NCBI GenBank assembly: GCA_004322535.1
Contig: SCUZ01000062.1
Location: 1-64,000 of the forward strand
Direction: 5' to 3'
DNA length: 64,000 bases
Origin: Rugosibacter sp.
Lineage (GTDB): Bacteria > Pseudomonadota > Gammaproteobacteria > Burkholderiales > Rhodocyclaceae
In this document: positions 2,759 to 59,418 of the stretch, in pieces
How the letters are laid out: the number at the start of each line of letters is the position of its first letter
Position numbering within the stretch: position 1 is the stretch's first letter
Position numbers and translations under genes: made by a program
Notes under the pieces: model-generated
Databases searched by the model: none
Told to the model about the DNA's origin: nothing
What the model saw: only the letters and a program-made list of their open reading frames with translations

Positions 2759-3847
2759 GTGCGGCTTTTTATTGGGCTGATGTCGGGCACGAGCCTTGAT
2801 GGCGTCGATGCCGTGCTGGTTGACTTTTCTTCTGGCCAACCACAAACACTCGCCACAGCCTGGCTACCCTATTCCGTCGCATTGCGCGACCAAGCATTAC
2901 TACTTCAGTCAGCCGGCAATAATGAGCTGCATACAGCAGCGCTATTGGCTAACGATTTAGCGCGACTTTATGCGCAAGTGGTTGAATGCGTACTTGCAAA
3001 GACAAATATAACTGCCGATCAAGTAATCGCCATTGGCTGTCACGGCCAAACCGTTAGGCATCAACCCAACGTCGGGTATAGCTTACAGATCAACAACCCT
3101 GCCCTACTCGCCGAATTAACTAAAATTACCGTTGTCGCTGATTTTCGTAGCCGCGATATCGCCGCCGGGGGGCAGGGTGCCCCTTTAGTGCCCGCTTTTC
3201 ATGCCGAAGTTTTTAGTTCACCTACTCAACATCGCTTGATTTTAAACATCGGTGGATTTGCTAATCTGACCGATCTCAACCCTGCAAGCCCAATTCGAGG
3301 CTTTGACTGCGGGCCTGGCAATATATTGATGGATGCATGGATTGATACCATACAGGGTGTTCAATACGACAAAGGGGGCCATTGGGCCAGTGAGGGAGTG
3401 ATTTCCATGGCCCTTCTTGAGAGATTGATGTCGGATCAGTTTTTTCATGCACCACCACCCAAAAGCTGTGGGCGAGATGGCTTTAATATGTCTTGGCTTT
3501 CTCAGTTCCTGAGCGGGAATGAACGTCCAGAGGATATTCAAGCCACTTTAGCGGAACTTACAGCCCTTACATCGGCACAAGCTATTCGACGGTGGTGCGG
3601 CCTTCCGGATGAGATTTTCGTCTGTGGTGGCGGAGTTCATAACACGATGCTAATGACCCGCCTACAGCACCATCTCCCGAGTTGCCGTATCACCAGCACC
3701 GACTTTCTGGGGCAACCATCCGATTGGGTCGAAGCGGTCGCTTTCGCTTGGCTAGCATGGCGTACTACTACAGGATGCGCAGGAAACTTACCCACTGTTA
3801 CCGGGGCCCGTGGACCCCGCATTCTTGGTGCGATCTACCCCGCCTAA
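2759..3847 (+). CDS. anmK: Anhydro-N-acetylmuramic acid kinase
   Basis: Phosphorylates and opens 1,6-anhydro-MurNAc released during peptidoglycan turnover, giving MurNAc-6-phosphate for recycling. The N-terminal ATPase-fold signature GLMSGTSLDGVD is present, followed by the phosphate loops GCHGQTVRH and GFDCGPGNILMDAW and the C-terminal VCGGGVHN. I place the start at GTG 2759, which gives the family-typical beginning just before GLMSGTS; an in-frame TTG at 2729, overlapping the M23 gene, is the alternative and would add ten residues. Translation is probably coupled to the upstream M23 peptidase gene. Confidence 0.93.
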   Translation: MRLFIGLMSGTSLDGVDAVLVDFSSGQPQTLATAWLPYSVALRDQALLLQSAGNNELHTAALLANDLARLYAQVVECVLAKTNITADQVIAIGCHGQTVRHQPNVGYSLQINNPALLAELTKITVVADFRSRDIAAGGQGAPLVPAFHAEVFSSPTQHRLILNIGGFANLTDLNPASPIRGFDCGPGNILMDAWIDTIQGVQYDKGGHWASEGVISMALLERLMSDQFFHAPPPKSCGRDGFNMSWLSQFLSGNERPEDIQATLAELTALTSAQAIRRWCGLPDEIFVCGGGVHNTMLMTRLQHHLPSCRITSTDFLGQPSDWVEAVAFAWLAWRTTTGCAGNLPTVTGARGPRILGAIYPA

Positions 3848-9105: not shown

Positions 9106-9130
9106 CACCGTATCCCCAGCGCCGACTTTT
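9106..9130 (+). repeat. Dispersed 25-bp repeat, copy A (intergenic, miaB-icd)
   Basis: Matches the consensus at 58531-58555 at 23 of 25 positions and keeps the invariant 14-bp core CCAGCGCCGACTTT. It lies in the 209-base gap between miaB and icd, about 50 bases upstream of the likely icd promoter. A partly complementary AAGTCCGGC about 25 bases downstream could fold back on it. Confidence 0.75.
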
Positions 9131-11194: not shown

Positions 11195-11515
11195 ATGGTT
11201 ACACGCAGAGAAACTGATAGAGGGGGAGATGCTGCACTTGCCCCGGAAAAAAGTAAAGCAAGCTTACCGCCGATGTACAAGGTATTGCTGCTGAATGATG
11301 ATTTCACGCCAATGGATTTCGTCGTGATGGTTTTGGAAAAATTTTTTACTTTATCACGAGAACAAGCAATGCAAGTTATGTTGAAGGTGCATCGTGAAGG
11401 AAAAGGTGTTTGCGGCGTTTATCCCATGGATATTGCCGCAACGAAAGTTGAACTGGTTAGTGCATTTGCACGGCAACACCAGCACCCGCTGGCCTGCGTT
11501 ATGGAGGAAAACTGA
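11195..11515 (+). CDS. clpS: ATP-dependent Clp protease adaptor ClpS
   Basis: Adaptor that delivers N-end-rule substrates to ClpAP. The 106-residue product has a flexible N-terminal 25 residues, then the ClpS core: [20 protein letters not shown] with the conserved Asn-Asp pair of the N-degron pocket, and [17 protein letters not shown]. The start is ATG 11195; an in-frame stop (TAG 11183) rules out an upstream start and there is no Shine-Dalgarno sequence, which with the promoter position suggests a leaderless mRNA. Its stop codon overlaps the clpA start by one base (TGATG), so the pair is translationally coupled. Confidence 0.95.
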
Positions 11516-13791
11516 TGATTGCCCAAGAACTTGAAGTTAGCTTGCATATGGCTTTCGTAGATGCGCGTCAGAAGCGCCACGAATTCATTACAGTGGAACA
11601 TTTACTGTTAGCCCTGCTTGACAACCCATCTGCCGCTGAAGTCTTGCGTGCGTGCGCCGTTGATATGGATGGGTTGCGCAAAGAGCTAACCGCTTTTATT
11701 AGCGACCATACGCCCACGGTTAGTGGCACTGATGAAATCGACACGCAGCCTACCCTGGGGTTCCAACGAGTTATTCAACGTGCTATTTTGCATGTGCAGT
11801 CATCCGGCAAAAAAGAAGTGACTGGTGCCAATGTTCTCGTTGCGATATTTGGCGAAAAAGATTCGCACGCAGTGTACTTCCTTCAGCGGCAGAATATTTC
11901 GCGTCTTGATGTAGTGAACTTTATATCTCATGGCATCGCTAAGGTTCCGCCCCCTCACAGCAAAGATGAAACGGCTGAAACTGAGGCAGAATCACAAGAA
12001 AAAGCAGGGGCGCTTGAGAGCTTTGCACAAAATCTGAATCAGCAAGCGCTAATTGGCAAGATAGATCCGTTGATCGGGCGAGACAAAGAGCTCGAGCGCG
12101 TCATCCAAACACTTTGCCGACGTCGCAAAAACAACCCCCTTCTCGTTGGCGAAGCAGGGGTTGGCAAAACCGCTATTGCAGAAGGCCTTGCCCGTCGCAT
12201 CACTGAAGGCCGTGTGCCGGATATTCTTGCCAATGCTGTTGTTTACTCACTTGACATGGGTTCCCTTTTGGCAGGAACAAAGTATCGAGGTGACTTTGAG
12301 CAACGCCTGAAGGCTGTGCTAAAACAATTGGCGGACACACCCAATTCAATTTTATTCATTGATGAAATTCACACTTTAATCGGTGCTGGTGCTGCCTCAG
12401 GCGGAACACTTGATGCATCCAATTTACTCAAGCCAGCGCTATCCTCTGGCGCACTCAAATGTATTGGTGCAACGACTTATAACGAATATCGCGGTGTATT
12501 CGAGAAAGATCACGCGTTATCCCGACGCTTCCAGAAAGTCGATGTCAATGAGCCATCGGTTGATGAAACCGTCTCCATTTTACGTGGCCTTAAGTCGCGC
12601 TTTGAAGAACACCACAGCGTTAAGTATTCGTCTGCTGCCATCTCCAGTGCAGCCGAGCTATCAGCCAAATATATTAATGATCGGCATCTACCCGATAAAG
12701 CCATTGACGTGATTGACGAAGCGGGTGCCGCGCAACGTATTTTGCCGAAATCGAAACAAAAAAAGCTGATTGGCAAAACTGAAATCGAAGAGATTGTTGC
12801 CAAAATTGCGCGGATTCCGCCTAAACATGTCTCTTCAGATGATCGCTCAGCACTAAAGAATCTCGACCGTGACCTGATGAATATGGTCTATGGCCAAAAT
12901 GCGGCAATTGAAGCGTTGGTTAGAGCCATCAAAATGTCCCGCTCCGGTCTGGGCGACCCGCAAAAGCCCATTGGTAGTTTTCTTTTCTCTGGCCCTACGG
13001 GCGTAGGAAAGACCGAAGTGGCCAGGCAACTGGCTTACTGCATGGGCATTGACCTCATACGCTTTGACATGTCTGAATATATGGAGCGTCATGCCGTCAG
13101 CCGCCTCATAGGTGCTCCGCCGGGTTATGTTGGATTTGATCAAGGCGGCTTACTCACTGAAGCCATCACAAAAAAACCGCATGCAGTGCTCTTGCTTGAT
13201 GAAATAGAAAAAGCCCACCCTGAAATTTTCAATATCCTGCTACAAGTAATGGATCATGGCTCGTTAACTGACAACAACGGCCGCAAGGCGGACTTCCGCA
13301 ATGTGATCATTGTCATGACCACCAATGCTGGTGCAGAATCTTTACAAAAAACCAGCATCGGCTTTACGACAAATAAAGCACAGGGCGATGAAATGGTTGA
13401 TATCAAGCGCATGTTCACGCCAGAGTTCCGGAATCGGCTGGACGCCATCATTTCCTTCCGTGCCTTGGATGCACAGATTATTCTGCGTGTCGTTGATAAA
13501 TTTCTCATGCAGCTGGAAGGGCAGTTACATGAGAAAAAAGTCGAGGCTATTTTCACTGATGCTCTTCGTGCATGGTTGGGTGAAAAAGGCTTTGACCCCT
13601 TGATGGGTGCCCGTCCCATGGCGCGCCTGATCCAAGACACGATCCGTTCCGCTTTGGCGGATGAATTGTTGTTTGGCCGATTGATTCATGGTGGCCGAGT
13701 AATTATTGATCTCGACGAAAATGAGAAAGTTAAACTGAAATTTGAGGATGCGGAGACCAACCCAACGATCCCATCATCTACCGTCGGTTAA
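11515..13791 (+). CDS. clpA: ATP-dependent Clp protease, unfoldase subunit ClpA
   Basis: Hexameric AAA+ unfoldase that feeds proteins to ClpP. The 758-residue product has the double Clp N-domain (1-140), first AAA module with Walker [10 protein letters not shown] and Walker B LFIDEIH, and second module with GPTGVGKTE and [14 protein letters not shown]. The IGL/IGF loop needed for ClpP docking is present as IGFTT near residue 618. Immediately downstream of clpS, ending at an intrinsic terminator. The protease subunit ClpP is not in this window. Confidence 0.96.
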
Positions 13792-13821
13792 GTAATCCCG
13801 CTCACAATCGTACCCACATAA

Positions 13822-13853
13822 AACTCGGCGCCTCATCAGCGCCGAGTTTTTTT
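13822..13853 (+). terminator. Intrinsic terminator after clpA
   Basis: AACTCGGCGC and GCGCCGAGTT form a 10-bp stem with a seven-base loop, followed by a run of seven or more T. It starts 31 bases after the clpA stop. Confidence 0.92.
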
Positions 13854-14073
13854 GTTTTGGCCACCCGCTTTACTGCTTTGACTCTTTGACTCCTAGTCTC
13901 GTGGATGATATTGCCATAGTCAACCTAATAATCGAACGCTTACCCATGCAAAAATAGCGCATGGCGTAGTAAGCCACGGCTCATATTTTTATTTTTTTAT
14001 CATTAAAACATTAAGTTAATAAATACTTAACTGAAACTGAAACAAAATTTAGGCCGTTTAAAATCTTAATAAG

Positions 14074-17152: not shown

Positions 17153-17160
17153 GCTAAAAA

Positions 17161-17190
17161 CCAACGCTGACTTCAGAAAGTCGGCGCTGG
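17161..17190. terminator. Hairpin between aceB and dut built from inverted repeat cores
   Basis: CCAACGCTGACTT (17161-17173) pairs with AAGTCGGCGCTGG (17178-17190): twelve pairs including one G-U wobble, one mismatch and a four-base loop. The right arm is part of dispersed repeat copy B and the left arm is a diverged half-copy of the same core in opposite orientation. It lies between the convergent ends of aceB and dut, where a terminator is expected; no strong T-tract follows. Confidence 0.5.
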
Positions 17191-17200
17191 CGATACGGCG
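17176..17200 (-). repeat. Dispersed 25-bp repeat, copy B (intergenic, aceB-dut)
   Basis: On the minus strand this matches the consensus at 24 of 25 positions, differing only at the last base. It is the only copy with an adjacent inverted half-copy (17161-17174), so it forms a hairpin. Confidence 0.8.
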
Positions 17201-27237: not shown

Positions 27238-27981
27238 TTATTTACCATTTCGCTGGAACTCTCCCAGCAATTTGGCCTCTTCTTGGCTCAAAAACCGTTC
27301 CTGCAAAAGATCCGGCCGTCTCTGCCATGTTCGTCCTAGCGCCTGTTTCAGTCGCCAAAGACGAATTTTTTCATGATTCCCTGATAACAAAACATCAGGA
27401 ACCTCGCACCCCTCGTACACTTCTGGCCGCGTGTAATGTGGCCAGTCTAACAAACCTGAAGAAAAAGAGTCCTCAACTACCGACGACTCATCACTCAAGG
27501 CTTCCGGCAAGTAACGAATACAGGCATCCATCAAGGCCATTGCCGCAATTTCACCACCAGATAAAACAAAATCGCCGAGTGATAACTCTTCATCAACACA
27601 TCGGTCAATGAGCCGCTCATCAATCCCTTCATAGCGGCCACACAAAAGAATCGCACCCGGGCCTGCTGCTAGTTCAATCACTCGTTGCTGCTTGATCGGC
27701 GCACCCTGCGGAGAAAGATAAATTACTTTCGCCGCATCACCAGCGCCGACTTTTGCCGCCTGAATTGCACATTCCAATGGACCAGCCATCATCACCATAC
27801 CGGGCCCGCCGCCATAAGGGCGATCATCTACTGTTCGATGAATATCATTCGCCCACTGCCGAGGATTCCAGCACTCTAACTGCCAGAGCTTGCGATTCAG
27901 CGCCCTCCGCGTGATTCCTGATTCGGTAATTGCCGAAAACATTTCAGGGAACAGGGTTATGACATCAAATCGCAAGGTCAC
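27238..27981 (-). CDS. trmD: tRNA (guanine-N1-)-methyltransferase
   Basis: Methylates G37 of tRNAs to prevent +1 frameshifting; essential SPOUT-family enzyme. The 247-residue protein has the knot-forming [15 protein letters not shown] and [20 protein letters not shown] regions and starts [15 protein letters not shown]. Its codons at 27730-27754 contain copy C of the dispersed repeat, read as [10 protein letters not shown] just before VIYLSPQG; protein length does not seem changed. Overlaps rimM by four bases (ATGA). Confidence 0.96.
27730..27754 (+). repeat. Dispersed 25-bp repeat, copy C (inside trmD)
   Basis: Matches the consensus at 23 of 25 positions with an intact 14-bp core. It lies on the strand opposite to trmD coding; in the trmD frame it reads [10 protein letters not shown], the same frame as copy E in gcvP. 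Confidence 0.75.
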
Positions 27982-34107: not shown

Positions 34108-34752
34108 TTATGGCAACTCGGCAAGAACAGTCGACGATGCTTTTACCGTCTCACCAACGCCGACTTTTATGTGGGTTTCAGGAGGCAGGTAAAGATCAAC
34201 GCGCGAACCAAAGCGAATAAATCCATAACGCTGACCACGGGTCATTTTTTCTCCCCTATCAACATAACAAAGTATCCGTCTTGCAATTAATCCTGCAACC
34301 TGGACGCACGTGATATCAAACCCGTCACGCGTCCGAAGGTGTAACGCATTGCGTTCATTTTCAAGCGAAGCCTTATCCAGGGAGGCATTTAGGAACTTAC
34401 CCGGATGGTACCAGCGATTCATAATTTCACCATCAACCGGACTGCGATTTGAATGGACGTTAAAAACATTCATGAAAATGCTTACTTTCACGCACTCTCG
34501 ATCAAGCCAGGGATCGCGCGCTGGCTCAATGACAACAATACGGCCATCCGCCGGCGCTAGAACACTTTTTTCCCCTTGTGGAATCGGGCGCGCAGGATCA
34601 CGAAAAAATTGCACGCAAAACACGAAAAAAATCCAGGCCGGAATACTCCATGTCCAACCCCAAAAATACAAACTCGCTATTGCTGCAACAAGCGCAAAGA
34701 AGATAAAAGGCCAGCCTTCGCGAGCAAGAATGGGATGTGGGTAATGATTCAT
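34108..34752 (-). CDS. psd: Phosphatidylserine decarboxylase, short form
   Basis: Converts phosphatidylserine to phosphatidylethanolamine using a pyruvoyl group formed by self-cleavage. The 214-residue protein has N-terminal hydrophobic segments ([20 protein letters not shown]) and the cleavage site Gly-Ser in [15 protein letters not shown] near residue 180. Its short length matches the archaeal/short Psd branch. The final strand [15 protein letters not shown], coded by 34144-34168, resembles the dispersed repeat at DNA level. Upstream of pssA, same operon. Confidence 0.94.
34144..34168 (+). repeat. Degenerate match to the dispersed repeat (inside psd)
   Basis: Differs from the 25-bp consensus at five positions, one of them inside the core. 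In the psd frame it reads KVGVGETVK, which is close to the normal sequence of this strand in the family, so the likeness may be coincidence. Listed so that it can be tested with the others. Confidence 0.3.
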
Positions 34753-44910: not shown

Positions 44911-47184
44911 CTAACGTTGCGCTTTTGACGGCTTTTTCAACGCCGCTTTGAATGGCGCTTTAGGCATCGTTTTGGACAACACTACTGGCGAATCTGCCAA
45001 CCGAAAATCAATCTTGCTGGCTTCCATATCGACGCGCACCAATTGCACTCGAACCCGGTCTGATAAACGAAAGCGTCGGCCGCTACGCTCACCCACCATG
45101 GTGTGCGTGTTTTCATCAAAGTGGAAGTAGTCCTGCCCGAGTTCTGAAACATGCACCAGGCCTTCGACGAACACGCCATCCAGTGCGATGAAAATACCGA
45201 ACGGAACAACGGAAGAAATGCTGCCCTCAAAGATTTCACCAATCCGATCGCGCATGTAATAACACTTAAGCCACGACTCCACATCGCGCGTGGCTTCGTC
45301 AGCACGGCGCTCGGTTGTTGAGCAGTGCAGGCCGATTTCTTCCCAGTTACCCGGCTCATATCGCCGTCTCGCCAGCGCCGACTTTATGGCACGATGCACG
45401 AGCAAATCAGGATAGCGACGAATCGGCGACGTGAAGTGGGTATAGCTGTCATATGCCAAACCAAAATGGCCCACATTATCCGGGCTATAAATCGCCTGCC
45501 GCAGTGAACGAAGCATCACGGTTTGGAGTAACTGCCGATCTGGCCGTCCGCCGATTTTGTCTATCAGCGCTGCATAATCTTTTGCGCCAGGGTCATTTCC
45601 ACCACTCAATTGCAACCCAAAAGTTCCCAAAAAATCGCGCAGCTTTTCCAGCCGCTCCGGTGTCGGTCCTTCGTGCACGCGATACAGCGTCGGATGCTCT
45701 TGCTCATGCAAAAATTCTGAGGCACATACATTAGCTGCCAGCATGCACTCTTCAATCAACCGATGCGCATCATTGCGCTCATAGGGCTCGATGCGATCAA
45801 TCTTGCCGTTCTCATCGAACAGCATCCGGGTCTCAACGGTTTCAAAATCAATCGCACCGCGTTTTTCGCGCGCCTTGGCGAGCTGTCGATAAAGTGCCTC
45901 CAATGCTTCAAGATGAGGCAGCACAGGAGCCAGTTTCTCGCAGGCACTGGCATCTTTGTCATAGAGTGCTGCGGCCACCTCGGTATATGTCAAGCGCGCG
46001 TGAGAGAACATCACCGCAGAATAAAACCGATAGCGCGTAATCGTACCTGCCCCATTGATGGCCATGTCACACACCATGCACAGCCGCTCAACTTGCGGAT
46101 TAAGGGAACACAAGCCATTCGACAATTTCTCAGGCAGCATCGGAATCACGCGGCGCGGAAAATACACCGAGTTTCCACGCTCATAGGCATCCTGATCTAA
46201 CGCCCCCTTTTCTGCGACGTAATGCGAAACATCCGCAATGGCAACGACCAGCCGAAACCCCTTGCCTTGTCGCTCGCAATAAACTGCGTCATCAAAGTCT
46301 CTTGCTGTCTCGCTATCAATGGTTACCAGTGGCAAACCCGTAATATCCTCGCGGCCCTTCCAATCCGACTTGCGTACAGCATCGGACAATTTCTTTGTTT
46401 CAGCTAACGCCGCATTTGAAAACTCAAAAGGAAGCTCATGTTTTCTCAGTGCAATTTCAATTTCCATACCGGGGTCAGCATAATTGCCGAGCACTTCGAT
46501 AATGCGGCCTATTGGCTGCGAATTCTTGCTGGGCTGCTCGATCAGCTCGACCATCACAATCTGGCCCGCACCCGGTTTAGGTAATTTCCTTGCTCCCTTT
46601 TCAGCCGGTGCCAGAAAGATATCCTGACTAATGCGCCGGTTTTCAGGCACCACAAACAACACACCATGTTCTTCGAGCACGCGCCCAACCAGGGTTTTAT
46701 TGGCGCGCTCGGTAACCTCGACAATCTTTCCCTCGGGACGCCCTTTGCGATCAACACCGATGACGCGAGCGATCACTCGGTCGCCATGCAGCACTTTGTC
46801 CATTTCCTTGGGCGAAAGGAAAATGTCATCCGAGCCATCTTCTGGCGACAAAAAACCAAAACCATCGGGATGCCCAATGATGCGGCCACGAACCAAATCC
46901 GCCTTATCTGGAATCAGCCAATCGCCCCGACGATTCTGCATGAGCTGCGCATCGCGCGCCATCGCGCCCAAGCGCCGCCGGAATGGCTCCATTTCGTCTG
47001 CATGAATATCCAGCAATTCAACCAGCCGATCAGTACTCAGCGGCGCGCCTTCGGTCACCAGAGTTTGCAGTATGTACTCGCGGCTGGGGAGTGGATGTTC
47101 ATATTGCGCCTGCTCGCGTGCGAACTCAGGATCAGCCCGGCGAATTTTAGAAAGCTTAGCAAGTGGTTTGGGTTTGTTTGACAA
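44911..47184 (-). CDS. rnr: Ribonuclease R
   Basis: Processive 3'-5' exoribonuclease for structured RNA. The 757-residue protein has an N-terminal winged helix, a cold-shock domain (GRIIGHPDGFGFLSPEDGSD), the RNB catalytic domain with the acidic cluster TIDSETARDFDDAVYCE, and a C-terminal S1 domain (FEGSISSVVPFGIFIALDGV) with a basic tail. Start is TTG 47184 preceded by AGGA; no ATG fits. Codons at 45362-45386 carry copy D of the dispersed repeat, read as KSALARRRY in the RNB domain. The tRNA-Leu promoter overlaps its start region. Confidence 0.96.
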   Translation of the reverse strand: MSNKPKPLAKLSKIRRADPEFAREQAQYEHPLPSREYILQTLVTEGAPLSTDRLVELLDIHADEMEPFRRRLGAMARDAQLMQNRRGDWLIPDKADLVRGRIIGHPDGFGFLSPEDGSDDIFLSPKEMDKVLHGDRVIARVIGVDRKGRPEGKIVEVTERANKTLVGRVLEEHGVLFVVPENRRISQDIFLAPAEKGARKLPKPGAGQIVMVELIEQPSKNSQPIGRIIEVLGNYADPGMEIEIALRKHELPFEFSNAALAETKKLSDAVRKSDWKGREDITGLPLVTIDSETARDFDDAVYCERQGKGFRLVVAIADVSHYVAEKGALDQDAYERGNSVYFPRRVIPMLPEKLSNGLCSLNPQVERLCMVCDMAINGAGTITRYRFYSAVMFSHARLTYTEVAAALYDKDASACEKLAPVLPHLEALEALYRQLAKAREKRGAIDFETVETRMLFDENGKIDRIEPYERNDAHRLIEECMLAANVCASEFLHEQEHPTLYRVHEGPTPERLEKLRDFLGTFGLQLSGGNDPGAKDYAALIDKIGGRPDRQLLQTVMLRSLRQAIYSPDNVGHFGLAYDSYTHFTSPIRRYPDLLVHRAIKSALARRRYEPGNWEEIGLHCSTTERRADEATRDVESWLKCYYMRDRIGEIFEGSISSVVPFGIFIALDGVFVEGLVHVSELGQDYFHFDENTHTMVGERSGRRFRLSDRVRVQLVRVDMEASKIDFRLADSPVVLSKTMPKAPFKAALKKPSKAQR
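45362..45386 (+). repeat. Dispersed 25-bp repeat, copy D (inside rnr)
   Basis: Matches the consensus at 23 of 25 positions, core intact. In the rnr frame it reads KSALARRR, a frame different from copies C and E, so the likeness is at DNA level, not at protein level. Confidence 0.75.
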
Positions 47185-47711: not shown

Positions 47712-48842
47712 ATGCTACAGCGCACCCCGCTTTACGCCGCCCATGTTGCCGCTGGTGCCCGCATCGTCGATTTCGCCGGCTGGGAAATGCCAATTCATTA
47801 TGGTTCGCAGATTGAAGAACATCATGCCGTGCGCCGCAATGCCGGTCTGTTCGATGTTTCCCACATGTGCGCGTTGGATTTGATCGGGCCGGACGCCACA
47901 CGATTTCTGCGCCGCTTGCTTGCGAATGACGTGGCCAAGCTCACCACCGCAGGGCGGGCGCTGTATTCTTGCATGCTCAATGCAGCCGGTGGCGTCATTG
48001 ATGATCTGATCGTCTATTTTTTCACGCCAACGCGCTACCGTATTGTTGTGAATGCAGGCACTGCAGAAAAAGATGTGGCCTGGATGCAAACGCAACTGGC
48101 AGGATTTGATGCAAGGATCACTCCCCGCTGCGATGGCAAAGACGAGAGTCAGACAAAAAACGCCCTCGCCATGCTCGCCGTACAAGGTCCGCAGGCGCGT
48201 GAGCTTTTCTGTGCGGCCTTCCCCGCCAGTCGCGCCGCCACTGAATCACTAGCGCCGTTTCATGCCCGCGAATGGCCAACGAATAAAGGTATTTGGCTGA
48301 TTGCACGGACCGGCTACACCGGCGAAGATGGCTTTGAAATCAGCCTGCCTGCCAGCGCCGTAGCAGAAGTTTGGCAGACGCTGATTGATATCGGTATCAA
48401 ACCCTGCGGCCTGGGTGCACGCGATACCTTGCGTCTTGAGGCCGGCATGAATCTCTATGGTCAGGACATGGATGAAACCACTTCGCCGCTCGACACAGGG
48501 CTTACCTGGACAGTCGATCTGCGCGACACCAACCGCGACTTCATCGGAAAGTCGGCACTGGTGACACGGCGACAAGAACACCAGTTCGTTGGCTTGTTGC
48601 TGCTCGAGCGTGGCATTTTGCGCGCACACCAGAAAGTGTTCAGTCCGCTGGGTGAAGGTGAGATCACCAGCGGTACATTTTCGCCTACACTCAACCAATC
48701 CATCGCTTTCGCACGTCTGCCTATTGGCATTATTTTGGGCAGCGAAGTCGGGGTCGACATCCGTGACAAACGCCTCAAAGCCAAGATCGTCAAACCAGTT
48801 TTTGTTCGCAACGGAAAATCTTTACTCGAATTTTCAACCTAA
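47712..48842 (+). CDS. gcvT: Glycine cleavage system T protein (aminomethyltransferase)
   Basis: Transfers the methylene group from aminomethyl-lipoyl-GcvH to tetrahydrofolate, releasing ammonia. The 376-residue product has [20 protein letters not shown] and FDVSHM at the N-terminus, the folate-site phrase [14 protein letters not shown] (about 197-210) and [19 protein letters not shown]. First gene of gcvT-gcvH-gcvP under the glycine riboswitch. Visibly richer in G+C than the genes before 44000. Confidence 0.96.
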
Positions 48843-49239: not shown

Positions 49240-52085
49240 ATCTTTTGCTTCGCCCGCTTGCCGAGCTCGAACAGCGCGATGAATTTGTCGCCCGCCACAT
49301 CGGACCGGATGAGGATGAAATCCGGCGGATGCTTGCCGTTATCGGCGTCGATTCACTGACCGCATTGATTGACGCCACTGTGCCCGCAGCCATCCGGCTG
49401 AATCGTCCTTTGGACTTGCCCGCACCCATGCCCGAGCAGGCGGCACTGGCAAAATTACGCACGATTGCCGAAAAGAACAGTGTCAAGAAATCCTATATCG
49501 GCCTCGGCTATTACGGCACGCACACGCCACCGGTGATTCTGCGCAACCTGTTTGAAAATCCCGGCTGGTACACCGCCTACACGCCCTATCAAGCAGAAAT
49601 TTCACAAGGCCGGCTAGAGGCGCTAATCAACTTTCAGCAGATGGTGATTGATCTGACCGGCATGGAAATCAGCAACGCCTCGCTGCTCGATGAAGCCACC
49701 GCAGCGGCTGAAGCCATGGCCATGGCGCGGCGCATTGCCAAGGTGGAGAGCAATGCGTTTTTTGTCGATGAAGGCTGCTTTCCGCAAACCATTGCCGTGC
49801 TCAAAACCCGCGCCGCCGGTTTTGGTTTCGATCTGATCTTCGGCCGCCCGGAAGATGCTGGCCAGCACAAAGTATTTGGCGCGCTGCTGCAATATCCGAA
49901 TGTGCATGGCGCAATCGCCGATCTTTCCGCACCCATCGCCGCGATAAAGAATGCCGGTGGCATCGTGGCCGTTTCCTCCGATTTGATGGCGCTGGTGCTG
50001 CTCAAGCCACCAGGGGAAATGGGCGCGGACATTGTGCTCGGCTCATCCCAGCGGTTTGGCGTACCGATGGGTTACGGTGGCCCGCATGCCGCGTTTTTCG
50101 CCACACGCGAGAACTACGTTCGCGCCATGCCAGGCCGCATCATCGGCGTCTCGAAAGATGCCCGCGGAAAACCTGCCTATCGCATGGCGCTGCAAACCCG
50201 TGAGCAGCATATCCGCCGCGAGAAAGCGAATTCCAACATCTGCACGTCGCAAGTCTTGCTCGCCAACATGGCCGGCATGTATGCGGTATGGCACGGACCG
50301 CAGGGGTTACGCGCGATTGCCGGCCGTATTCATCGACTGGCTGCATTACTGGCGCAGGCATTGGGCACCGAGGGTGCATTTTTTGACACGCTCACTGTAA
50401 AAGTCGGCGCTGGTGATACGGCGAAGATACATGCTGCAGCGGTAGCAGCGGGCTACAACCTGCGTGCAGTCGATGCGACGACACTCGCCATCAGCATCGA
50501 CGAGACCGCCACGCGCGAAGACATCACCTGCCTGTTGGCAATTTTCGGCAAATCGGCCGACCTCGATGCCGTCACGCCATGCGCCATTCCCGCTGCACTG
50601 CAGCGGACCTCCACCTTCCTCACCCATCCCGTATTTAATTCGCATCACACCGAGCATGGTCTGCTGCGCTATCTCAAGAGCCTACAAAATCGCGATCTCG
50701 CGCTCGATCATTCGATGATCCCGCTCGGTTCCTGCACCATGAAGCTGAATGCCGCTGCCGAAATGATTCCCGTGTCATGGCCGGAATTCGCGCAGATGCA
50801 TCCCTTTGCCCCGCAATACCAGGCACAAGGTTATGCGCAACTGTTTCATGAGCTTGCAGCGCAACTCATGGCCATCACCGGTTTTGATGCCATCTCGCTC
50901 CAGCCGAATTCCGGCGCGCAGGGCGAGTATGCGGGCCTCACCGCAATCCGCCGCTATCAGGCCAGTTGCGGTGAGGCGCACCGCGCAATCTGCCTGATCC
51001 CCAAATCGGCGCATGGCACCAACCCAGCCACGGCGCAGATGTGTGGCCTCGAGGTAATCGCCGTAGCTTGTGATGCGCAAGGCAATATCGATCTTGCCGA
51101 TCTTGAGGCTAAAGCGGCTCAGCACGCAACAAAACTTTCCTGCCTGATGCTCACCTACCCTTCTACGCACGGCGTATTCGAAGAAGCGGTCAAAGATATC
51201 TGTGCCATCATTCACGCGCACGGCGGCCAGGTGTATATGGACGGCGCCAATCTCAATGCCCAGGTCGGTCTCACGCGCCCGGCTGATATTGGCGCCGACG
51301 TTGCCCACATCAATCTGCACAAGACCTTCGCCATCCCGCACGGCGGCGGCGGGCCGGGCATGGGGCCGATAGGGGTCAAGGCCCATCTTGCATTTTTTTT
51401 GCCGGGGCATGACTTTTCGCAAAACAATTTTCTGGAAACCAGTACGCAAGGCGCTGTTTCTGCTGCACCATGGGGCTCGGCGGCCATTCTGCCCATTTCA
51501 TGGATGTACATCACGCTACTGGGCGCCGCAGGTGTGCAGCGCGCCAGCGAAATCGCCATTCTCAACGCCAACTATATTGCTGCACGCCTAGCCGAACACT
51601 ACCCGGTGCTCTATACCGGCACACAGGGTTGTGTGGCGCATGAATGCATTCTGGATATTCGCACGATCAAGAGCAGTACCGGCGTGACTGAAAGCGATAT
51701 TGCCAAACGCCTGATGGACTATGGCTTTCATGCGCCGACAGTGAGCTTCCCGGTAGCCGGTACGCTGATGGTGGAACCCACCGAATCGGAAAATCGGGCT
51801 GAGCTAGATCGTTTTTGCGACGCAATGCTATCGATCCGCGAAGAAATTCTCTGCATCGAACGTGGTGAATGGCCGCTGGAAAACTCGCCACTCAAGCACG
51901 CACCGCATACCAGTACCGATCTGGTTGCCGAATGGACGCGGCCTTATACGCGCGAAACGGCAGTCTTTCCACTGCCCTGGGTAGCGACAAATAAATTCTG
52001 GCCGTCGGTAAATCGGATTGACGATGTACATGGGGATCGCGCTTTGTTTTGCGCCTGCGTTCCCCTTGAAGAAAGTATCGGATAA
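49236..52085 (+). CDS. gcvP: Glycine dehydrogenase (decarboxylating), P protein
   Basis: PLP enzyme decarboxylating glycine and loading the remainder on GcvH lipoate. The 949-residue fused form has [17 protein letters not shown] at the start, [18 protein letters not shown] in the N half, and the PLP lysine in [20 protein letters not shown] (about residue 694). Codons at 50399-50423 hold copy E of the dispersed repeat, read KVGAGDTAK between FDTLTV and [11 protein letters not shown], a variable stretch of the family. Last gene of the operon. Confidence 0.96.
50399..50423 (-). repeat. Dispersed 25-bp repeat, copy E (inside gcvP)
   Basis: On the minus strand this matches the consensus at 24 of 25 positions. 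In the gcvP frame it reads KVGAGDTA, the same frame and orientation relative to coding as copy C in trmD, although the two proteins are unrelated. Confidence 0.8.
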
Positions 52086-58468: not shown

Positions 58469-58530
58469 GGGGAAAGGTAACGAAGAAAGTACGCGACATG
58501 TGGCAAAGGCTGCATTATAGTGACCCTCGT

Positions 58531-58555
58531 CGCCGTATCGCCAGCGCCGACTTTT
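58531..58555 (+). repeat. Dispersed 25-bp repeat, copy F (consensus copy, upstream of radical SAM gene)
   Basis: CGCCGTATCGCCAGCGCCGA plus CTTTT: this copy equals the majority sequence of the whole set. It lies between queD and the most likely start of the radical SAM gene (58567). If the upstream in-frame ATG 58498 is used, it is read as RRRIASADF in the protein, a third reading frame. Confidence 0.85.
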
Positions 58556-58566
58556 TAAATCACGCC

Positions 58567-59418
58567 ATGCATAGAGTTTTACTCAAGACAGATGATCACG
58601 CTCGTGACAGCACAGGCATGCGCTATGTGTACCCTGTGCTCTCGCGCCGGGCAGGCGGCATATCCCTGGGCATTAATCTCAACCCCAATAACGCCTGTAA
58701 TTGGCGTTGCATCTACTGTCAGGTGCCCAATCTCACTCGCGGTGGGCCACCGCCTATTGATCTGGCTTTGCTTGAGCAAGAACTGACAACACTCCTGGGC
58801 TCCATTGCAGACGGAAGTTTGATCATTGATCATGACGCCAAGTCTCATGGCTTACCCGTATTACGTGACATCGCTTTTTCCGGCAATGGCGAACCCACCA
58901 GTGCAGTAGAATTCCCCTTGGCGGTTTCACTCGTGCGCAACGTGTTGCATGCCCATGGGCTGGATCAGCGGGTCATGCTGCGCCTGATAACCAATGGTAG
59001 CCTGCTGGATCGCCGCAGCGTTCAAGCCGGGATAAAAGACATTGGCAACGCATCAGGCGAAGTGTGGTTCAAGGTGGATAGCGCGAGCACCGCCGGACTG
59101 GCACTGATCAATGGCATTCACATCAAGATTGAAACTGTCTCGCGACGGCTTGCACGTTGCGCAGCCTTGGCGCCCACCTGGGTACAAACCTGCCTGTTTA
59201 GGCTGGATAATACCTTACCTGCGGAAGATGAAATCACGCGTTATCTTGCTTTACTCGCACCTGTCGCAAAACAACTCAAAGGCATTCATTTGTACAGCTT
59301 GGCTAGGCCTTCACTACAAAAAGAAGCGCCTAGATTGCGACGTCTTGATACGGAGTATCTCGAAAACATCGGGCAGAGAATTCGGCACCTTGGACTTATT
59401 GTCCAAGTAAACTCTTAA
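58567..59418 (+). CDS. Radical SAM protein next to queD
   Basis: The cluster motif CNWRCIYCQ (CxxxCxxC, about residues 45-53 from ATG 58567) is preceded by GINLNPNNACNW and followed by the SAM-binding GNGEPTSAVEF. The 283-residue form starts MHRVLLKTDDHARDS, the usual family beginning; an in-frame ATG at 58498 would add 23 residues, including the repeat-encoded RRRIASADF, and I judge it less likely. Domain pattern is COG0731-like Fe-S oxidoreductase. It is not a canonical QueE by sequence; its reaction is unknown. Confidence 0.85.
   Translation: MHRVLLKTDDHARDSTGMRYVYPVLSRRAGGISLGINLNPNNACNWRCIYCQVPNLTRGGPPPIDLALLEQELTTLLGSIADGSLIIDHDAKSHGLPVLRDIAFSGNGEPTSAVEFPLAVSLVRNVLHAHGLDQRVMLRLITNGSLLDRRSVQAGIKDIGNASGEVWFKVDSASTAGLALINGIHIKIETVSRRLARCAALAPTWVQTCLFRLDNTLPAEDEITRYLALLAPVAKQLKGIHLYSLARPSLQKEAPRLRRLDTEYLENIGQRIRHLGLIVQVNS

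Follow-up and report, generated by a model that had tools for sequence, protein, structure and literature searches.

Self-specific uptake of DNA is described as a property of two families, the Pasteurellaceae and the Neisseriaceae (PMC7811141, PMC3630211), and a connection with life on mucosa, amid the DNA of a host, has been drawn (PMC7811141). The uptake signal sequence (USS) of the former has two known subtypes, AAGTGCGGT and ACAAGCGGT (PMC3630211), and an average spacing of about 1 kb (PMC7811141). The DNA uptake sequence (DUS) of the latter is 10-12 bp long, has about 2000-3600 copies, requires a CTG core context (GCCGTCTGAA; core per PMC3630211) and in Neisseria genomes is frequently arranged as inverted-pair terminators. 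The subject here is a 25-bp repeat dispersed through a 64-kb stretch of a Rugosibacter genome (Rhodocyclaceae; contig SCUZ01000062.1, positions 1 to 64,000), the whole of which is termed the window. Abundance, division into dialects, conservation above that of the surroundings, location in the core genome and absence from recent acquisitions, all features of the kind reported for uptake sequences (PMC3630211, PMC2397512), lead us to regard it as very probably a DNA uptake sequence of the Rhodocyclaceae.

Like the USS, the Rhodocyclaceae motif is dispersed on both strands, but it is without the AAGTGCGGT or ACAAGCGGT core, and the sequence identity amounts to a chance-level AAAGT start. Its 5′ part, GCCGTCT, matches the start of GCCGTCTGAA, which is a lead only, as the motif is much longer than the DUS, lacks the CTG core context, is present in hundreds rather than thousands of copies, belongs to another family and does not have the inverted-pair terminator arrangement. 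Every genomic test except terminator pairing fits the DUS and USS, while the sequence belongs to neither known family, and no report of the motif, or of any Rhodocyclaceae DNA uptake sequence, was found in the open-access literature. There is a good chance that what is being seen is a third, independently evolved uptake system, in environmental Betaproteobacteria, with a 25-bp signal of unusual length, at least four dialects within the one family and a receptor of new specificity.

Abundance, spacing and dialects

Iteration of a weight matrix over 460 kb of the genome to which the window belongs (G000; 2.57 Mb in 115 contigs) gives the asymmetric motif CGCCGTmTCrCCAGCGCCGACTTTT, with information limited to 25 positions (-10 to +14) and a flat profile outside them. 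In order, it consists of CGCCGT, a nearly free base, TC, a purine, the 14-bp core CCAGCGCCGACTTT and then mostly T. A matching motif was recovered from a single-contig genome of the same genus (G007; 2,934,611 bp) and from a representative of another genus (G046), and it is the top over-represented oligomer in all three. The exact core occurs 178 times in the window's genome (82 forward, 96 reverse) and the reversed pattern, used as a control, on neither strand, which upholds the suggestion of an earlier note on the window, made from its sequence, that the repeat is beyond chance. Over 860 kb the density of strong sites is one per 4.8 kb, and the 91 found in the 460 kb of G000 extrapolate to about 500 for a genome. 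A simple gene caller, by which 89% of the DNA is coding, places 67 of the 91 in genes and 24 between them, an enrichment in the 10.6% of non-coding sequence of some 2.4-fold. The genic copies occupy five of the six frame and strand classes, and in the empty one A at the variable position gives TGA in frame.

The copies are more evenly spaced than expected. Intervals of less than 500 bp make up 1.9% of the total, where 10.7% would be expected (none of 5000 simulations was that low), and those of less than 1 kb make up 9.9% as against 20.3% (p 0.0002); the variance-to-mean ratio of counts per 20 kb is 0.51. There are four motif-free gaps of 80-127 kb in G007 (contig C1, at 56-142, 533-609, 940-1066 and 1855-1944 kb), all other gaps being 41 kb or less. 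These four, 377 kb in all, hold three strong sites where about 78 would be expected (1, 1, 1 and 0, against 26, 18, 16 and 18), a contrast inflated by their having been picked as the largest without exact cores, gene content not having been a selection criterion. They correspond to three elements resembling integrative and conjugative elements (ICEs) and one prophage-bearing region: one has a tyrosine integrase with TraC, TraG and TraI, another a gpA-type terminase and a tail protein, and a third TrbE/VirB-type and T2SSE ATPases with an integrase. The mobile content of the fourth was foretold before inspection, and its translations, read without a family search, include an integrase-like protein and VirB-like and relaxase-like genes. 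The window's own genome likewise has a motif-free stretch, of 38 kb (G000:C8, about 0.8-40 kb), in which there are accessory genes and the remnant of an integrase.

Some cargo of these regions may be recorded in passing. One ICE-like element of G007 has metal-efflux genes and another aromatic or steroid-type catabolic genes, and the translations of the G000:C8 stretch include HipA/HipB-like and RelE/DinJ-like pairs, a second ATP synthase operon, and polyphosphate and trehalose genes. Separately, the motif is present, in most cases as a single copy, in 102 stretches of IMG/VR viral contigs, which may be boundaries between prophage and host or phages that bear it.

All nine genomes of the genus are rich in the exact core (147-250 exact 14-mers in seven; 181 in another, an assembly 60% complete), as are the Rhodocyclaceae genera g2, g9, g20, g39 and g47, and most other genera have it at background level. 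Records containing a 24-mer of the motif are labelled Sulfuritalea, Rugosibacter, Sulfurisoma or as metagenome-assembled genomes of Rhodocyclaceae or Rhodocyclales; a few are filed as Burkholderiaceae or as beta- or gammaproteobacterial. In G018, a genome taken to be negative, de novo k-mer searching turned up AAAGTCAGTCCC, which is the 3′ half of CGCCGTGTCGCCGGGACTGACTTTT. A pattern with its ends only fixed, GCCGTNNCNCCNNNNNNGACTTT, which detects just those dialects sharing these ends, finds CCGGGACTGACTTT in genus g11 (58, 41 and 26 copies), CCAGCGTCGACTTT in g46 (49 copies) and CCACGGCYGACTTT in g106 (30, 12 and 7 copies), and there is a GCACC variant in g9. Between the constant ends there are four dialect centres, with 0-2 matches per genome to the reversed control. 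No overall dialect was evident in samples of 56-100 kb from G010, G011, G012 and G013; weak repeats are present in G014 and G015. In a set of 399 genomes of the order, copy numbers outside the family range from 0 to 6, with the standard dialect predominating (G284, G094, G071 and G379 are among those with one to six), and these stray copies possibly mark genes transferred from bearers or reflect assembly contamination.

Origin in place and a nested hairpin element

Whether copies arise by insertion or by point change, a comparison advocated in the earlier note, is answered for one locus by the gene for RNase R, in which the motif is at one shared site in the genomes of the same genus and in genera g2 and g9, other genera being without it. 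Protein length is equal in most genomes (VHRAIKSALA as compared with VHRAIKAVLA), and because length is unchanged, this copy arose by substitutions. The site in trmD, common to the three bearing genera, is less informative about origin because it lies within a loop of variable length. With unbiased subjects and flanks 75-80% identical, orthologue pairs have an ungapped motif identity of 0.880 as against 0.794 in control windows; for flanks 70-75% identical the values are 0.812 and 0.738. Not all pairs are independent, several sharing one locus, and once flank identity falls below 80%, the motif region contains gaps more often than the controls do. With flanks 80-98% identical, the motif is kept in 25 of 26 pairs, the single loss being an insertion within it; no clean 25-bp empty site was found among pairs with flanks at least 80% identical, and the gapped pairs mostly reflect insertions within the motif.

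The insert that interrupts some copies is most often exactly 27 bp long (CACCCCAAGGGTACTTSCTKCGSGGCG) and is found at three positions within the motif, other insert sizes being 24, 45 and 66 bp. It is a hairpin unit, CACCCCAAGGGTACTT(C/G)CT(T/G)CG(G/C)GGCG, seen at L233, L053, L114, L117, L145, L196, L202, L205, L390 and elsewhere, and it constitutes a dispersed repeat in its own right in 27 of 151 family genomes, motif-free ones included. In trmD of G006 (L233) it is in frame inside the motif, with same-genus relatives being without it. It is also situated between the arms of other inverted repeats, and in G024, G025 and G101 there are tandem units exactly 27 bp apart. This hairpin repeat, which is separate from the 25-mer, does behave as an insertion.

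Copies within the window

The earlier note described the repeat as present six or seven times. Six copies do have the exact core, invariant and at the positions first listed, and the repeat is real, but the number was an undercount, there being ten good and weak copies. Matches with up to two core mismatches total 11, against a shuffle mean of 0.56 and a largest shuffle value of 4. As had been reported, both orientations are represented, as are intergenic DNA and unrelated genes: seven copies are in predicted genes (anmK, trmD, psd, rnr, gcvT, gcvP and a radical-SAM gene, the names being readings of translations) and three are intergenic.

The exact consensus, CGCCGTATCGCCAGCGCCGACTTTT, is at 58531-58555 (plus strand), at the 5′ end of the predicted radical-SAM gene (58498-59418), whose start is uncertain. 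Also on the plus strand are an intergenic copy at 9106-9130, one in trmD at 27730-27754, at the site shared with same-genus genomes and genera g2 and g9, and one in the RNase R gene at 45362-45386, at the site conserved across three genera; the latter two are antisense to their genes. On the minus strand there are a copy at 50399-50423, antisense in gcvP, and one between convergent genes at 17176-17200. The plus-strand copy at 34144-34168, antisense in a psd-like gene, had been taken for a five-mismatch relative; it is present, with a core that differs by one base only. Two further copies with one core mismatch were absent from the first list, namely that at 3683-3707 (plus strand; core CCAGCACCGACTTT) within an anmK-like gene and that at 48547-48571 (minus strand; core CCAGTGCCGACTTT), antisense in gcvT.

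Two copies are associated with terminator-like hairpins. The core of the 17176-17200 copy, together with an imperfect inverted copy (AAGTCAGCGTTGG) and TTTTT, forms one at 17154-17190 (minus strand), which a pattern scan did not flag. A weak copy at 13826-13850 (plus strand) overlaps another (AAAACTCGGCGC...GCGCCGAGTTTTTTT), an association that may be coincidental; in the region 13790-13865, downstream of the gene at 11515-13791, this copy coincides with a strong hairpin that leads into a run of T.

Competing explanations and the uptake reading

Several other explanations, most of them entertained in the earlier note, deserve consideration. Derivation from coding constraint or codon bias might be thought of as most copies are genic, but they are in several frames and on both strands, encode different peptides, and have intergenic counterparts of the same sequence. 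The earlier note saw no gene family in the window that would account for the repeat, and, together with the spread over frames, a Markov check of the kind it proposed refutes a coding by-product: a third-order model predicts 0.2 occurrences of a 12-mer in the 460 kb, and 38 are seen. This explanation has next to nothing in its favor. A small mobile repeat inserting as a 25-mer, of the kinds known as repetitive extragenic palindromes (REP), miniature inverted-repeat transposable elements (MITE) and small dispersed repeats (SDR), would account for dispersal and for the intergenic enrichment, and a genuinely inserting element, the 27-bp hairpin, is at hand, even inside the motif. The likeness stops at that nested element, since the 25-mer arises in place: RNase R orthologues are of equal length with and without it, clean empty sites are lacking at the higher flank identities where the gaps are mostly insertions within the motif, and copies avoid closeness to each other. 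For the 25-mer itself, mobility is very improbable. A strand-polar recombination or segregation signal would likewise be asymmetric, over-represented and dispersed chromosome-wide. Chi and KOPS (FtsK orienting polar sequences) are, though, 8-mers with strong polarity, and the motif is long. The strand-bias check, made on the single-contig 2.93-Mb relative by chromosome halves and sliding arcs, the origin not being mapped, found the strands intermixed (plus:minus counts of 51:62 and 71:52 in the first and second halves; p 0.07), with a largest imbalance among the half-chromosome arcs examined of 48 versus 66. A signal of the Chi or KOPS type is thereby largely refuted, and exceedingly improbable.

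A different type of explanation makes the motif the target of a chromosomal DNA-binding protein, be it a nucleoid organizer or a segregation or repair factor, whose specificity has drifted between genera. Even spacing, retention in orthologues and absence from recently acquired DNA would all suit a slowly evolving chromosome-wide site, and to this extent the nucleoid-protein site that the earlier note had offered still fits. Several sharp dialects within one family are explained less well, and the length of the site (25 bp), its asymmetry and its placement in housekeeping genes regardless of reading frame tell against such a protein; we know of no protein candidate. This is unlikely, if worth keeping in mind.

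The uptake signal, also among the note's suggestions, is the one with which abundance, presence on both strands, even spacing, in-place origin, orthologous conservation, absence from mobile elements and lineage dialects all accord. Bearers also have competence machinery: ComEC was detected in 23 of 24 genomes searched, the window's own included, and in 12 of 13 bearers (the exception, G195, is an 85% complete assembly), but being in all 11 non-bearers as well, it does not discriminate. Several observations weigh against the uptake reading. Bearers have an operon of minor pilins, FimT- and PilE-like proteins among them, but a PilE-like/FimT/PilW-type operon is found in motif-free relatives too; among the genes tested (PF12019 pilins and ComEC, bearers versus non-bearers), none tracks the motif. 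Inverted pairs are not enriched, with one within 150 bp where about eight would be expected (860 kb), hairpins at motif copies are near chance level, and copies are about five times sparser than the Haemophilus USS, which occurs about once per kb (PMC7811141). Comparison of three pilins with PDB and NCBIfam gave general pilin matches only, mainly at the N-terminus. A second cluster resembling MSHA minor pilins (L355, L356, L358, L359, L364, L368 and L346) is present in several bearers and in the non-bearer G010, and is a possible source of the receptor.

As an uptake signal, the motif would be bound, on extracellular double-stranded DNA, by a component of the type IV pilus, most probably one of the minor pilins, like ComP of Neisseria; the pilus would pull the bound DNA in, ComEC would carry a single strand through the inner membrane, and the incoming strand would be fixed by homologous recombination. 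Chance matches would be spread by biased transformation and then kept, because motif-bearing DNA would enter more often; incoming ICEs and phages would not carry the motif, and with a receptor of altered specificity the dialect would shift.

If this is correct, this clade of the Rhodocyclaceae has, or once had, active natural transformation, and the motif sequence offers a handle for finding the receptor. Stray copies in other families would mark genes derived from Rhodocyclaceae bearers. More broadly, environmental bacteria would supply a third case and with it a natural replicate outside a host, making the origin, spacing and dialect evolution of uptake signals testable without one.
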